A DNA stretch of 64,000 nucleotides from Prevotella veroralis DSM 19559 = JCM 6290 (GTDB lineage Bacteria; Bacteroidota; Bacteroidia; Bacteroidales; Bacteroidaceae), in the NCBI RefSeq assembly GCF_000377625.1, contig NZ_KB898325.1, forward strand, positions 124,001-188,000. Direction: 5' to 3'. Made by a program: the position numbers and the translations under genes. This document shows, piece by piece, positions 3,691 through 64,000 of the stretch. Each line of letters starts with the position of its first letter. Positions within the stretch are counted from its first letter, which is position 1. The notes beneath the pieces are model-generated. The model saw only the letters and a list, made by a program, of their open reading frames with translations, had not been told where the DNA came from and ran no database searches.

Positions 3691-3828
3691 AAATCAGTTC
3701 GTTTTATATTTTGCTTATCAATTTAGTTGCTATTATGAGCAGGGAAGAATAATGGAATTGAATAGGTCAGCCCTTATGAGTTTGTCATGCAAATAATTCC
3801 TCATTCAACGATGCGTATATAACGAATG

Positions 3829-3836
3829 CAAAGATA
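3829..3836 (-). promoter_or_regulatory. Candidate -7 box for rmlA operon
   Basis: On the minus strand this reads TATCTTTG, matching the Bacteroidota -7 consensus TAnnTTTG. I see no convincing TTTG -33 box about 20 bp upstream. It would give a leader of about 130 nt before rmlA. Confidence 0.4.
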
Positions 3837-3910
3837 AGAAATTAAATCTAATTTAAATACCTCTAAATGATAAAACATACATTAAGCGTGTGCTTTCTTA
3901 GTTTTTTTAT

Positions 3911-3918
3911 TAACTTTG
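3911..3918 (+). promoter_or_regulatory. Candidate -7 box for the 210-aa gene
   Basis: TAACTTTG matches TAnnTTTG and lies 56 nt upstream of the ATG at 3975. The -33 region is poor. The 3691-3974 spacer holds this box and the divergent rmlA box and otherwise looks featureless. Confidence 0.45.
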
Positions 3919-3974
3919 CAACCGAATAGAAGATTTTAATACGTTGTAATAACTTAAAAACAAAATATAAGAAC

Positions 3975-4607
3975 ATGGGATTCTTTTCAAAGCTTTTTAG
4001 TAAAAGTAGTGATGAAACAGCAAAGTCTGGAGGAATGGAAGATTATATGACTCTCATTAGGGTTTATTTCCAAGCTGTACTTGCCTCTCGCCTTGGTATC
4101 AATAATTTGGCAATGCTTCCCGACCTGCGTACATATAAGCAAACATTTCATGTCCCGACCTTACGTAATAAGTTGGGCTTAGGAGAAATGGCTAGTGTAA
4201 AGAAAACAATGAAAAGCCTATATAAAGTCGATGATAATTTCTTTGATGAGATAGACGCTAGCATTAAGAAGAATTGTAAGAAGATGCAAGATGTACAGCC
4301 TTATCTTTATCAATTCCAAGGTTTCACACAAGATTTAATGATGCTAATTGGTAATTTGATGAAGTTTAAGTTGCGTGTTCCAGGCTTCTTCAAGAAAGCA
4401 ATTTATACCATGACAGAGAAGACGGTAAATGATATTTATGACAAGAATGACTTCTCTGATGCTGGTGTTATCAAAGCTGTAGTAGCTGTTCGACAATATA
4501 ATCAGCGACTTCATTTTAGTAGAAAATGGACTACAGATTTCGTTTATCAGATTGTTATGTTGGCAAAGAAAGAGCCTAAACCAGCAGAGCAAACGGCATC
4601 AAAATAG
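3975..4607 (+). CDS. Conserved-looking hypothetical protein, 210 aa
   Basis: I do not recognise a family. The protein is soluble and helix-rich, with no signal peptide or membrane segment. It begins MGFFSKLFSKS, a short amphipathic basic stretch that could touch a membrane or a partner. It is rich in Lys and Met, has a Phe-rich central part (about 110-140) and ends in a Lys/Pro/Glu tail. Codon use matches its neighbours. It has its own upstream promoter-like box and sits directly ahead of the coiled-coil gene, zapA and rny, with a separate good promoter in the 66-nt gap, so it is probably a separate transcription unit. Function unknown. Confidence 0.75.
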   Translation: MGFFSKLFSKSSDETAKSGGMEDYMTLIRVYFQAVLASRLGINNLAMLPDLRTYKQTFHVPTLRNKLGLGEMASVKKTMKSLYKVDDNFFDEIDASIKKNCKKMQDVQPYLYQFQGFTQDLMMLIGNLMKFKLRVPGFFKKAIYTMTEKTVNDIYDKNDFSDAGVIKAVVAVRQYNQRLHFSRKWTTDFVYQIVMLAKKEPKPAEQTASK

Positions 4608-7624: not shown

Positions 7625-7728
7625 ATGAATTAATATTATCATTATCGTGATAAATAATTATCACTTACTGATAAATAGTTATCTCTATAGTGATAAATAA
7701 TTATCACAGAGTGATAATATTATTTTCT
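7625..7728. repeat. Array of five GTGATAA dyads at 21-22 bp spacing
   Basis: Units start at about 7625, 7647, 7668, 7690 and 7711. The best two are GTGATAAATAATTATCAC (7647-7664 and 7690-7707), i.e. GTGATAA and TTATCAC arms around ATAA. The others are degenerate but keep one half-site. The array sits just downstream of the predicted start of the HU/winged-helix transcript, where it could act as operator or as RNA hairpins. Confidence 0.85.
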
Positions 7729-12335: not shown

Positions 12336-12369
12336 GTTGTCTCTTTCTTTTCTTATAAGATATTGCTGA

Positions 12370-12431
12370 TTGGACAGGCTTGTCCAACTAATTGGACACG
12401 TTTGTCCAATCAGTTGGACTAATTAGTCCAA
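12370..12431. repeat. Three TTGGACA dyads at exact 22-bp spacing
   Basis: Units are TTGGACAGGCTTGTCCAA (12370-12387), TTGGACACGTTTGTCCAA (12392-12409) and TTGGACTAATTAGTCCAA (12414-12431). Each has 7-bp perfect arms around a 4-nt centre. In unit 3 a base change in one arm (A to T) is matched by the compensating change in the other. The array lies in the imelysin to di-heme spacer. Confidence 0.92.
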
Positions 12432-12537
12432 TTTGATAGTCCTTATAGGAAGATGATACTCGGTAAATAATATATTGGGTGCAACTTCACCTTTCCACCG
12501 TTTGATCATCTTTAATACCATACGGAAATGCCCGTCT

Positions 12538-21630: not shown

Positions 21631-21828
21631 GGTTAGCCGAAAATTTTTATTTGATATAAATTTATTTCTAACCGCTTCCCCGTAAATTTCTAACCGTATA
21701 TAAATTTATGGGGAACAGTATATAAATTTTCTTCTAACACGTTCCCCGTAAATTGCAAACACGTTGGAAATTTACGGGGAACAGCATATAATTTTTCTTC
21801 CAACAGCATACGAGTTTCTTTCTAACTT
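21631..21828. repeat. Nine-block mosaic array in 22-bp register
   Basis: Cut at 21631 and every 22 bp, the region falls into nine blocks built from a few half-units: TATATAAATTT, TTCCCCGTAAATT or its inverse AAATTTACGGGGAA, and CTAACCG or CTAACAC. The register is exact over nearly 200 bp although block content changes. Inverted pairs include ATATACGGTTAG (21625-21636) with CTAACCGTATAT (21690-21701). Confidence 0.85.
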
Positions 21829-38938: not shown

Positions 38939-38975
38939 ATATTAAGGCATTTGTATTCATTATACGAAAGCGATT

Positions 38976-39044
38976 ATCTTCATTATATCAAGGCGACGGT
39001 CTTCATATAAGGAAGAGGGAGGTCTTGATATAAGGAAGAGAAAA
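38976..39044. repeat. Three imperfect dyads at 23-bp spacing
   Basis: Units begin at 38976 (ATCTTCATTATATCAAG), 38999 (GTCTTCATATAAGGAAG) and 39022 (GTCTTGATATAAGGAAG). Each has inward-facing CTT and AAG ends. They lie upstream of an HU-family gene, echoing the array upstream of the other HU-family gene. Confidence 0.7.
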
Positions 39045-47959: not shown

Positions 47960-48034
47960 GGTTCCGTAGCTCAGTTGGATTAGAGCAACAGCCTTCTAAG
48001 CTGTGGGTCTTGGGTTCGAACCCCAACGGAATCA
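47960..48034 (+). tRNA. tRNA-Arg (anticodon TCT)
   Basis: A 75-nt cloverleaf. Acceptor GGTTCCG pairs with CGGAATC (one G-T). The anticodon loop CTTCTAA gives TCT, read as arginine (AGA). The T-arm has TTCGAAC between TTGGG and CCCAA. The gene-encoded CCA is absent and the discriminator base is A. Confidence 0.95.
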
Positions 48035-48044
48035 CTTCTTGATA

Positions 48045-48082
48045 AAGTGTCTAAAACGTTATGTTTTAGGCACTTTTGTTTT
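48045..48082 (+). terminator. Terminator after tRNA-Arg
   Basis: AAGTGTCTAAAAC (48045-48057) pairs with GTTTTAGGCACTT (48063-48075; one G-T pair), followed by TTGTTTT. Confidence 0.9.
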
Positions 48083-48129: not shown

Positions 48130-48441
48130 CTTAAATCTAAGTGCGATAGATGTTTAAGTTAAAGAACGATTGACCTCTAACTTGAAGTGCGAAGGTATTT
48201 TAAGTTAGAGTACGGTGTTATACACGTTTGTATAATTGGTTATACACGTTTGTATAATTGGTTATACACGTTTGTATAATTGGTTATACACGTTTGTATA
48301 ATTAGTTATACACGCCTGTATAATAGACTATACAAGCGAGTATAATGTAGTTCATTAAGTATAAGTCCAAAAGATGTTTAAGTTAAAGAACGATAGATGT
48401 CTAAGTTAAAGTACAATTGATGTTTAAGTTAAAGTACAATT
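48130..48441. repeat. Composite dyad array: 23-bp flanks around a six-unit 22-bp core
   Basis: The core holds six 18-bp dyads starting at 48218, 48240, 48262, 48284, 48306 and 48328, exactly 22 bp apart. Units 1-4 are TTATACACGTTTGTATAA; unit 5 has centre CGCC; unit 6 is CTATACAAGCGAGTATAA. On the left, four units with TTTAAGTT-like centres (about 48130, 48153, 48176, 48199) repeat every 23 bp. On the right, three more (gATGTTTAAGTTAAAG type, at 48373, 48396 and 48419) repeat every 23 bp. The 48083-48535 spacer holds little else. Confidence 0.93.
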
Positions 48442-48535
48442 GCCAATGAATAGAGCATATATTACCAGGTATAGAAATTTGAAGTTAACCTAAGACGAAC
48501 TTATCTTAAAATATTATTCTTTTTAGTTCTAAGCG

Positions 48536-48566
48536 TTTGTTGTATAATTATTTTTTTGTACCTTTA
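48536..48566 (+). promoter_or_regulatory. Candidate gyrA promoter
   Basis: TTTG (48536-48539) and TACCTTTA (48559-48566) are 19 bp apart; the last -7 base departs from consensus. The leader to ATG 48690 is about 115 nt. Confidence 0.5.
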
Positions 48567-48689
48567 CGCCTCGAAAATACATGCAAAACGGCTTAGAAAG
48601 GAAATAAAGACTATTATAGACAATTCTAGTCCCAAAGACATAAGCTCGTAAAAGCTGCTATCAAGGAATTAATAACAATAATAATATAA

Positions 48690-51278
48690 ATGGACGAAAA
48701 TCAGACAATTGATCAGGACAGAATTATGAAGATCAACATCGAGGAGGAGATGAAAAGCTCCTACATCGACTACTCAATGTCGGTGATTGTGGCACGTGCC
48801 CTCCCTGATGTTCGTGACGGTTTTAAGCCTGTTCACCGCCGTATTCTCTTCGGTATGCGCGGTATTGGTAACTTTAGCAACCAGCCTTACAAGAAGTGCG
48901 CCCGCGTTGTTGGTGAGGTACTTGGTAAGTATCACCCACATGGTGACTCTTCTGTCTATGGTGCGCTTGTTCGTATGGGACAGGAATGGAATATGCGCTA
49001 CAAGTTGGTTGACGGACAGGGTAACTTTGGTTCTGTCGATGGTGACTCTGCTGCTGCGATGCGTTATACTGAGTGCCGCCTCTCAAAGATGGGTGAGCAC
49101 GTTATGGACGATATCGAGAAAGATACGGTTGATATGGTCAACAACTTCGACGATACGTTGCGCGAGCCAGCTGTGATGCCTACAAAGATTCCTAACCTGC
49201 TTGTAAATGGTGGTAATGGTATCGCTGTGGGTATGGCAACGAATATTCCTACGCATAACCTTGGAGAAGTTATTGATGGTTGCTGTGCTTATATTGACAA
49301 TCCAGAGATTTCTACCGATGGCTTGATGGAGTTTATCCCTGCTCCAGATTTCCCAACAGGTGCTTATATCTATGGTCTTCAAGGCGTTAAAGATGCCTAT
49401 GAGACTGGTCGTGGTCGCGTCGTAATGCGTGCCAAGGCTGAGATTGAGAGCGATGAAAGTCATGATAAGATTGTTGTTACAGAGATTCCTTACGGAGTGA
49501 ATAAGCAGCAGCTTATCGAATATATCGCTGACCTCGTGAAGGAAGGCAAGCTTGAGGGTATCTCTAACGTTAATGACGAAACGGGTCGTCAAGGTATGCG
49601 TATTGTTGTTGATGTGAAGCGTGATGCCAATGCAAACGTCATTCTGAATAAGCTTTTCAAGATGACAGCATTGCAGAGTTCTTTCTCTGTAAACTGTATC
49701 GCATTGGTAGCGGGTCGTCCACGTCTGTTGAGCCTTCGCGAGTGCATTAAGTACTTTGTTGAACATCGTCACGATGTCACTATCCGCCGTGCTCAGTTTG
49801 ACCTTAAGAAGGCACAAGAACGCGCACATATCTTAGAAGCACTGATTAAGGCTTGTGATAATATTGATGAGGTGGTACGTATTATTCGTGCCAGCAAGAC
49901 ACCTTCTGAGGCTCAGAAGAACCTTGAGAAGCGTTTTGACTTTGATGAGCTTCAGTCAAAGGCTATCGTTGATATGCGTCTGTCACAGCTTACAGGTCTG
50001 CGTCTTGACCAGTTGCATCAGGAGTTTGAGGAACTTATGCAAACCATCAAGGACTTGCAGGAGATTCTTAATAACCCTGAGCGTTGTAAGGAAGTGATGA
50101 AGGAAGAGTTGCAGGAGGTTAAGGAGAAGTATGGCGATGACCGTCGTACAGAGATTATCCCTGATGAGCATGAGTTTAATGCTGAGGACTTCTATCCTAA
50201 TGACCCTGTTGTTATTACTATTAGCCACCTTGGTTATATTAAGCGTACTCCGCTTGCAGACTTTAAGGAGCAGGCTCGTGGTGGAGTAGGTTCTAAGGGT
50301 GCCCGCACACGTGAGAAGGACTTCACCGAATATATCTATCCAGCAACAATGCACCAGACAATGCTGTTCTTTACTCGTAAGGGACGCTGCTACTGGATGA
50401 AGTGTTATGACATCCCAGAGGGAGACAAGAACTCAAAGGGACGTGCTATTCAGAATATGCTCTCACTTGAGCCAGGCGATTCTGTTAATGCATTCTTGCG
50501 TATTCAGGGCTTGGATGATGATGAGTTCCTCGATTCTCACTACGTAGTATTTGCGACAAAGCAGGGTATCGTTAAGAAGACTTCTCTCCGAGCTTATTCA
50601 CGTCCTCGTACCAATGGTGTGATAGCTATCAATATCAATGAGGGTGATGAGGTGGTAGATGTTCGCTTGACAAATGGTCATAACGAACTTATCATTGCTG
50701 ACCGCAATGGTCGTGCTTGCCGCTTCGATGAATCAAATATCCGTACAATGGGCCGTGTGTCTACCGGTGTTCGTGGTATGCGTCTGGACGAAGATGGACA
50801 GGACGAGGTTGTTGGTATGATTGTTGTTAATGACCCTGTTAAAGAGACGGTTATGGTAGTCTCTGAAGAGGGTTACGGAAAGCGCTCACAGGTTGAGGAC
50901 TATCGATTGACCAATCGTGGCGGTAAGGGTGTTAAGACGCTGAATATTACGGAGAAGACCGGTAAACTTGTTGCTATCAAGAACGTTACCGATGATAACG
51001 ACTTGATGATTATCAACAAGAGCGGTATTGTTATTCGTATGTCGGTCGCTGAATGCCGTGTAATGGGTCGTGCAACGCAAGGTGTACGTCTGATAAACCT
51101 TGCCAAGAAAAATGATGTTATCGCATCTGTATGCAAGGTGATGAGTTCAGAGATAGAGTCACAGGTTGAGGATGATAGTCGTGAACAATGGGCTAAAACC
51201 AGTGAAGAAATCAAGAGTGACATAAACTCATCATCAGAAGTTGGTGAGCCAGATGTACCCCCAGTCGATTTCGATTAA
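48690..51278 (+). CDS. gyrA: DNA gyrase subunit A
   Basis: GyrA cleaves and rejoins DNA to introduce negative supercoils with GyrB. The 862-aa protein has the catalytic Tyr in AAAMRYTECRLSK, the quinolone region HPHGDSSVYGALVRM (Ser at the resistance position, Gly where E. coli has Asp87), and six beta-propeller repeats in the C-terminal third. A GyrA box appears as QARGGVGSKG, which marks gyrase rather than topoisomerase IV. The C-terminal tail is acidic with an EVGEPDVPPVDFD ending. It has a long AT-rich leader behind the dyad array. Confidence 0.96.
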   Translation: MDENQTIDQDRIMKINIEEEMKSSYIDYSMSVIVARALPDVRDGFKPVHRRILFGMRGIGNFSNQPYKKCARVVGEVLGKYHPHGDSSVYGALVRMGQEWNMRYKLVDGQGNFGSVDGDSAAAMRYTECRLSKMGEHVMDDIEKDTVDMVNNFDDTLREPAVMPTKIPNLLVNGGNGIAVGMATNIPTHNLGEVIDGCCAYIDNPEISTDGLMEFIPAPDFPTGAYIYGLQGVKDAYETGRGRVVMRAKAEIESDESHDKIVVTEIPYGVNKQQLIEYIADLVKEGKLEGISNVNDETGRQGMRIVVDVKRDANANVILNKLFKMTALQSSFSVNCIALVAGRPRLLSLRECIKYFVEHRHDVTIRRAQFDLKKAQERAHILEALIKACDNIDEVVRIIRASKTPSEAQKNLEKRFDFDELQSKAIVDMRLSQLTGLRLDQLHQEFEELMQTIKDLQEILNNPERCKEVMKEELQEVKEKYGDDRRTEIIPDEHEFNAEDFYPNDPVVITISHLGYIKRTPLADFKEQARGGVGSKGARTREKDFTEYIYPATMHQTMLFFTRKGRCYWMKCYDIPEGDKNSKGRAIQNMLSLEPGDSVNAFLRIQGLDDDEFLDSHYVVFATKQGIVKKTSLRAYSRPRTNGVIAININEGDEVVDVRLTNGHNELIIADRNGRACRFDESNIRTMGRVSTGVRGMRLDEDGQDEVVGMIVVNDPVKETVMVVSEEGYGKRSQVEDYRLTNRGGKGVKTLNITEKTGKLVAIKNVTDDNDLMIINKSGIVIRMSVAECRVMGRATQGVRLINLAKKNDVIASVCKVMSSEIESQVEDDSREQWAKTSEEIKSDINSSSEVGEPDVPPVDFD

Positions 51279-63750: not shown

Positions 63751-64000
63751 CTTCATTTATACTTTAATTTGGACATCAATTGAATTTATACTTAAACATC
63801 AATCATACTTTAAGTTAATGTGCGATGTTCTACACGTTTGTATAATCTATTATACACGTTTGTATAATTGATTATACACGTTTGTATAAAAGGCTATACA
63901 AACTTGTATAAAGTCGTTTATCAAGTATAAGGGCGAATGTTGTTTAAGTTAAAGTATGGTTGGCTTCTACCTTAAAGTACGATTGTCGTTTAAGTATAGG
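63751..64000. repeat. Second composite dyad array, runs off the window
   Basis: Core units start at 63828, 63850, 63872 and 63894, exactly 22 bp apart: TTCTACACGTTTGTATAA, TTATACACGTTTGTATAA twice, and CTATACAAACTTGTATAA. After the core come TTTAAGTT-type units every 23 bp (63943, 63966, 63989); before it are inverse-oriented TACTTTAA/CATCAAT units. Order and content match the array at 48130. Confidence 0.92.

Follow-up and report, generated by a model that had tools for sequence, protein, structure and literature searches.

The window, which is the whole stretch of 64,000 nucleotides of the Prevotella veroralis genome analysed here, carries an array of palindromic units between the gene of tRNA-Arg (ending at 48035) and that of DNA gyrase subunit A, gyrA (starting at 48690), as an earlier note on this DNA had located it. 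The tRNA gene is followed by a hairpin resembling an intrinsic terminator, and a promoter-like element, TTGTACCTTTACG, recognised by eye after the Bacteroidota promoter pattern, is situated near 48555-48570, downstream of the array. The features of the window are compiled in Table 1.

Table 1. Features at the gyrA locus and related arrays elsewhere in the window (positions are those of the window)
Feature	Position	Strand	Source
tRNA-Arg (TCT)	47960..48035	+	ARAGORN; Rfam tRNA
Intrinsic-terminator-like hairpin after tRNA-Arg	48044..48076	+	
Left flank, three weak dyad units at a 23-bp step (centres 48158, 48181, 48204), in register with the core	48149..48213	.	
Core array, six 18-bp dyad units at an exact 22-bp step	48218..48345	.	
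Right flank, a degenerate unit (48359.5) and three units at a 23-bp step (48382, 48405, 48428), in register with the core	48350..48437	.	
gyrA leader common to P. vespertina, with promoter-like TTGTACCTTTACG	48520..48689	+	
gyrA (DNA gyrase subunit A)	48690..51278	+	
Second composite of the core-array family: 23-bp flank, TTATACA dyad array (63829-63912), 23-bp flank to the window end	63758..64000	.	
Sister family, TTGGACAnnnnTGTCCAA dyads at a 22-bp step, arms with GG/CC in place of the AT/AT of the core array	12369..12433	.	
Dyad array, TTATCACnnnGTGATAA-like units at a 21-22 bp step	7635..7717	.	
Array of 66-bp period (3 x 22 bp)	21654..21805	.	
23-bp-period array without clear dyad	38956..39006	.	

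The six units of the core, 18 bp each, start at 48218, 48240, 48262, 48284, 48306 and 48328. Units 1-4 are identical (TTATACACGTTTGTATAA), unit 5 (TTATACACGCCTGTATAA) has the same arms with the centre changed to CGCC, and unit 6 (CTATACAAGCGAGTATAA) is imperfect, with 5 of its 7 arm pairs kept. The original description of six exact dyads at 22 bp therefore holds for the step and for the arms of five units, but not for those of the sixth, which, as had been correctly observed, departs in its arms yet stays in the 22-bp register. Also confirmed were the flanks on both sides of the core, made of weaker dyads of the TTTAAGTTAAAG type at a 23-bp step. To say that the two periods do not mix is nevertheless misleading: the dyad centres of flanks and core join in one register, forming a ladder from 48158 to 48428 with steps of 22-23 bp (48158, 48181, 48204 and 48226.5, five steps of 22 to 48336.5, then 48359.5, 48382, 48405 and 48428), with a weak rung at 48359.5 (3 of 9 pairs). 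The distance at the flank-core junction (22.5 or about 45 bp) was seen again at other loci of the TTATACAnnnnTGTATAA family. With linkers of 4 nt and no unique spacers, the array was rightly held apart from CRISPR, the repeats of which have unique spacers of 25-40 nt.

Close comparison was made with one species, P. vespertina (G003), in which the first 140 residues of GyrA are 99% identical to those of this genome (G000) and in which conservation of the gyrA leader begins at window position 48520. There the leader is preceded by a different gene, and neither the array nor tRNA-Arg stands beside it. On the tRNA-Arg side the homology stops at C1:172077 (window 48077), with another gene next to it in P. 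vespertina and again no array. Since both conserved flanks have other neighbour genes and no array, the array fills a synteny breakpoint; the comparison of filled and empty sites, as for target-site duplication, sets this locus against a species lacking the array at both flanks, the locus being itself a breakpoint. Retention of the leader without the array in P. vespertina refutes a role specific to gyrA and leaves the array class as such unrefuted. The array probably plays no specific part in gyrA expression, and a gyrA leader or attenuator was rejected, as the promoter-like region lies downstream of the array and P. vespertina has no array there.

The array family and the 22-bp class

The TTATACAnnnnTGTATAA family comprises 19 arrays in the 2.85-Mb genome, distributed over four contigs, with 14 of them on contig C1 (1-555004; binomial p=5e-7). 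Tandem copies of the dyad were also detected in seven other Prevotellaceae, namely P. vespertina, Hoylesella marshii, Segatella maculosa, P. pallens, P. micans, P. dentasini and Prevotella sp. HJM029. The viral, plasmid, phage and E. coli collections gave no match to the array, and a phage- or plasmid-borne element was dismissed for want of matches in those collections; matches in Gracilibacteria and Saccharibacteria (L040, L045) are likely due to chance in AT-rich DNA. It may be added that the cumulative GC skew of contig C1 has a terminus-like peak near 300 kb. The clustering on C1, together with the skew, prompted consideration of a terminus macrodomain motif (matS-like), for which there is no support, as the arrays of H. 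marshii are spread over the chromosome, one of them 28 kb from dnaA.

Well over a hundred arrays with this pitch were found, nearly all between genes of this oral-type Prevotella, and that upstream of gyrA is one of them. An unbiased search of C1:1-400k returned about 30 dyad arrays, nearly all with a 22-bp step though their arms were of many unrelated sequences. Three first-order Markov copies of the same region yielded none, which puts the arrays well above chance. A census of tandem arrays with units of 13-40 bp, based on simple home-made gene calls, covered 1.195 Mb, or 42% of the genome. The period was 21-23 bp in 152 of 181 arrays (binomial 2e-28) and exactly 22 in 113, many unrelated sequences being represented; the consensus unit was dyadic (p<=0.05) in 51 of the 152, versus 0 of the 29 arrays with other periods (Fisher 3e-5). 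Within the first 795 kb, 102 of 106 such arrays were intergenic, their flanking genes being convergent in 35 cases, co-directional in 56 and divergent in 11; relative to spacer length, spacers between divergent genes were somewhat poor in arrays (chi-square p=0.045). Units of the class thus measure 21-23 bp with a mode of 22, i.e. two helical turns, and run head to tail, often as dyads, in continuous ladders whose adjacent stretches may differ in arm sequence while the register is common.

The period extends beyond recognisable arrays. Spacers from which arrays had been masked retained excess identity at lags 22, 44 and 66 (z of 24, 15 and 15, respectively; binomial), and in 353 spacers without detectable array the top lags were 22, 66 and 44, an example being the ladder TTGTAATAC... 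at C1 123537; coding DNA gave no such signal. Nothing was found at lag 33 in the masked spacers, for which reason phased A-tract curvature was rejected, and an 11-bp lag of dyad centres is a trivial outcome of a symmetric 22-bp tandem repeat. Lag 22 also ranks top in P. vespertina, P. pallens, S. maculosa and the genus member G016 and is present, more weakly, in H. marshii; it was not seen in E. coli or in the distant Bacteroidota and outgroup samples G009, G061, G067 and G070. Several species possess families of their own, e.g. GTTACAGATATCTGTAAC in P. pallens.

Some further observations concern repeats of other kinds or arrangements. The first 100 kb of H. marshii (L188-L192) contain eight tandem arrays of 41-bp period, a second dominant unit length. 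A dispersed 16-bp tandem family resembling ACTTGTCAACTCGTCA was noted in this genome at C3 97516, C4 24856, C4 89657, C5 21235, C6 49653 and C7 126302. At C1 224109-224369 a central dyad array stands between two non-dyad 22-bp arrays that are apparently mutually inverted, and C4 65000-92500 holds a dense cluster of 22-bp arrays, mostly of GAAGA/GGCGTT-type and C-rich units, where coding density is low.

Turnover of the arrays

Orthologous arrays of this genome and P. vespertina differ by whole units at three loci (537k, 50k and C7), the number of 22-bp units thus varying as in bacterial minisatellites (VNTR). The denial of simple tandem duplication in the earlier note stands insofar as pitch and dyads are kept across families, but has to be qualified by this gain and loss of entire units. 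Arms, furthermore, are exchanged in register. The spacer at C3 47.4k has TTGGACn/GTCCAA arms in this genome, and its P. vespertina counterpart has arms of the TTATACA/TGTATAA and TTCTACA/TGTAGAA kinds; at C7 51122 and in S. maculosa the two arm types are combined in hybrid arrays that keep a single register, and H. marshii has TATACA beside TCTCCA/TGGAGA units. Along a ladder of 15 rungs (C3 96471-96800) the arms change several times at constant 22-bp phase.

Two rearrangement junctions fall at arrays. Segment L038 of P. vespertina (3700-4060) has the left flank of the 113.8k array on one side and a flank of the 460k array on the other, the junction falling within the array; in the present genome these two arrays are 346 kb apart; in L046 (3690-3760) a second such junction is found at one end. 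From these two cases, the arrays look like endpoints of rearrangement through recombination between dispersed copies.

The arm-compensation test at the edges of TTATACA arrays gave a mixed result: 9 of 123 units were paired beyond chance, with an overall excess of zero. Single unpaired arm changes there were as frequent as by chance, and symmetry is therefore not strictly enforced. Where both arms have changed together, this speaks for selection or for correction of palindromes by template switching, a known mutational route (e.g. PMC3820800).

Origin of the pitch

Taken as a whole, the array upstream of gyrA is probably, though by no means certainly, one locus of a genome-wide, intergenic class of pitch-locked palindromic minisatellites in Prevotellaceae. 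Such arrays would change by duplication and loss of units and by recombination between dispersed arrays, and would then decay to the weak 22-bp periodicity of other spacers. We infer that the process fixing the pitch acts on the DNA duplex, through helical phase or through a DNA-handling protein working in two-turn steps, and not on a transcript. Against this explanation, one pitch for unrelated sequences is not predicted by simple slippage, and the TTATACACGTTTGTATAA 18-mer, conserved in several Prevotellaceae, suggests a sequence-specific constraint of some sort. The families, moreover, may not be fully independent, owing to remote common ancestry.

A ladder of protein-binding sites can be entertained tentatively as the alternative. 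Here a homodimeric or filament-forming protein, nucleoid-organising or iteron-like, would occupy one dyad per two turns on the same face of the helix, selection would keep pitch and symmetry, and each arm family would be the target of one of several related proteins or a looser variant of a single site. The earlier suggestion that one helix face is contacted every two turns agrees with the pitch of 21-23 bp irrespective of sequence, with the register maintained over family boundaries as arms switch, with mismatches free of strand bias and with the occurrence of the 18-mer in eight Prevotellaceae genomes, i.e. this one and seven others; the protein itself is putative. Paired arm alternatives at homologous arm positions (AT/AT, GG/CC, CT/AG and TC/GA) and the clustering of the TTATACAnnnnTGTATAA family on C1 (14 of 19 arrays, p=5e-7) point in the same direction. 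However, dyad symmetry falls short of significance in two thirds of the 22-bp arrays, uncompensated single arm changes are common and the mean paired-arm excess at array edges is about zero, degenerate ladders are found everywhere in spacers, and the reading comes without a candidate protein. It is more doubtful still that Prevotellaceae intergenic DNA consists of 22-bp ladders of symmetric, sequence-interchangeable sites read by a hypothetical family of chromosome-organising proteins; if true, this would mean that Bacteroidota, a group with little-known nucleoid proteins, possess a DNA code flexible in sequence and defined by its pitch. Of the two accounts, duplication and recombination with a bias to two-turn units is preferred over a protein ladder whose pitch and symmetry would be under selection.

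An RNA feature, in which transcripts would form tandem hairpins serving as a 3' end stabiliser, a terminator series or a leader, is improbable. The core is predicted to fold as RNA far more stably than shuffles (-50.8 kcal/mol, z -7.4), and arrays are somewhat rarer between divergent genes, as given above. The predicted structure, however, is one long hairpin and not the row of hairpins proposed earlier, the DNA fold is alike, and any symmetric tandem repeat yields such a fold. The row of hairpins is further disfavoured by the terminator-like site upstream of the array and by the promoter-like region and conserved leader downstream of it. In arrays between co-directional genes, deviations from symmetry on the coding strand numbered 50 G-T versus 42 A-C, and 11 arrays leaned each way; given the lack of a G-T excess, nothing suggests that an RNA helix is under selection. 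Rfam at gathering threshold found tRNA alone in the window. As far as can be judged from sequence, the array would best be read as a DNA-level feature and not as an RNA leader.

The chance is equally slim that the arrays belong to a mobile element, i.e. a transposing MITE or REP-like element with an internal minisatellite. The homologous copies are dispersed, restricted to intergenic DNA, alike in their flanks and in part joined at common junctions, which would agree with it, as would the precedent of BrickBuilt in P. gingivalis, a MITE that encloses a 23-nt minisatellite (PMC4596501). By eye, however, the flanks are variable in length, mosaic between copies and devoid of constant ends, and the 14 C1 loci inspected with their flanks revealed no common ends of the leader and tail kind with terminal inverted repeats. 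The gene of a RAYT-type Y1 transposase is absent (0 matches to PF01797 in this genome; the control search matched in 5 of 14 named genomes), phage, plasmid and viral collections contain no match, and many unrelated sequences at one pitch are left unexplained. A cluster of DnaA boxes (consensus TTATnCACA), whereby arrays would titrate DnaA or regulate through it, is very improbable: TTATACAC resembles the box, the half-site TTATACACG fits the consensus but for the last base and H. marshii has TTATCCACG units, but no full TTATACACA box stands among the 82 matches listed for this genome, the sister TTGGACA arrays and many other families are unlike it, and the H. marshii arrays are spread over the chromosome.

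Unit lengths of bacterial tandem repeats normally follow from chance first duplications. Unrelated intergenic repeats built on one 22-bp unit, often a mirror-symmetric one, with the same period in spacers that lack visible repeats, imply a mechanism that measures two helical turns. The class offers a direct handle on the origin and turnover of intergenic DNA in Bacteroidota; it also bears on how recombination rearranges the chromosomes of Prevotella and may lead to a novel DNA-binding system.

Comparison with known repeat systems

No description of the whole class was found in the open-access literature, and several known systems share some of its traits. The REP/BIME elements with RAYT systems of enterobacteria and Pseudomonas are short intergenic palindromes in many copies, found oftener near gene ends than near promoters. 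The present arrays resemble them in all these respects but differ in their fixed 22-bp pitch, in the head-to-tail arrangement of many sequences and in the lack of a Y1 transposase, on account of which a REP/RAYT system was rejected; nor was the REP-type GTAG tetranucleotide seen by the hairpins, the linkers being TTGG, TTAG, TTGA, TCAG, CGAG and others. Plasmid iterons (e.g. the 22-bp iterons of R6K) are likewise tandem units of about two helical turns with sequences differing from system to system. They form single sites beside rep genes, whereas the arrays, well over a hundred in number, are dispersed on the chromosome, have no rep genes linked to them and consist of units that are often mirror-symmetric; at the locus studied, the neighbours are tRNA-Arg and gyrA in place of a rep gene and replication origin, and the family is dispersed on four contigs. 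Among the intergenic mosaic elements of Neisseria, dRS3 inverted repeats similarly are intergenic palindromes acting as recombination sites, but flank longer repeat blocks and have no fixed pitch, unlike the arrays.

Within Prevotella, PINSR of P. intermedia and P. nigrescens is also an intergenic dispersed repeat, described as a single 188-bp sequence with 177-184 copies per genome (PMC4755523). The text consulted gives no 22-bp tandem structure for PINSR, in contrast to the arrays found here, and identity with this different, 188-bp element was rejected. BrickBuilt of Porphyromonas gingivalis, present in 19 copies, belongs to one sequence family and has a leader and tail with terminal inverted repeats common to insertion sequences (PMC4596501). 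The arrays differ from it in showing no constant ends, in uniting many unrelated families at one pitch and in their often perfectly dyadic units. At the same time, both are dispersed intergenic repeats of Bacteroidales with units of 21-23 bp set head to tail without spacers (19 arrays of the TTATACAnnnnTGTATAA family in the present case), and BrickBuilt is the closest described element that we found.
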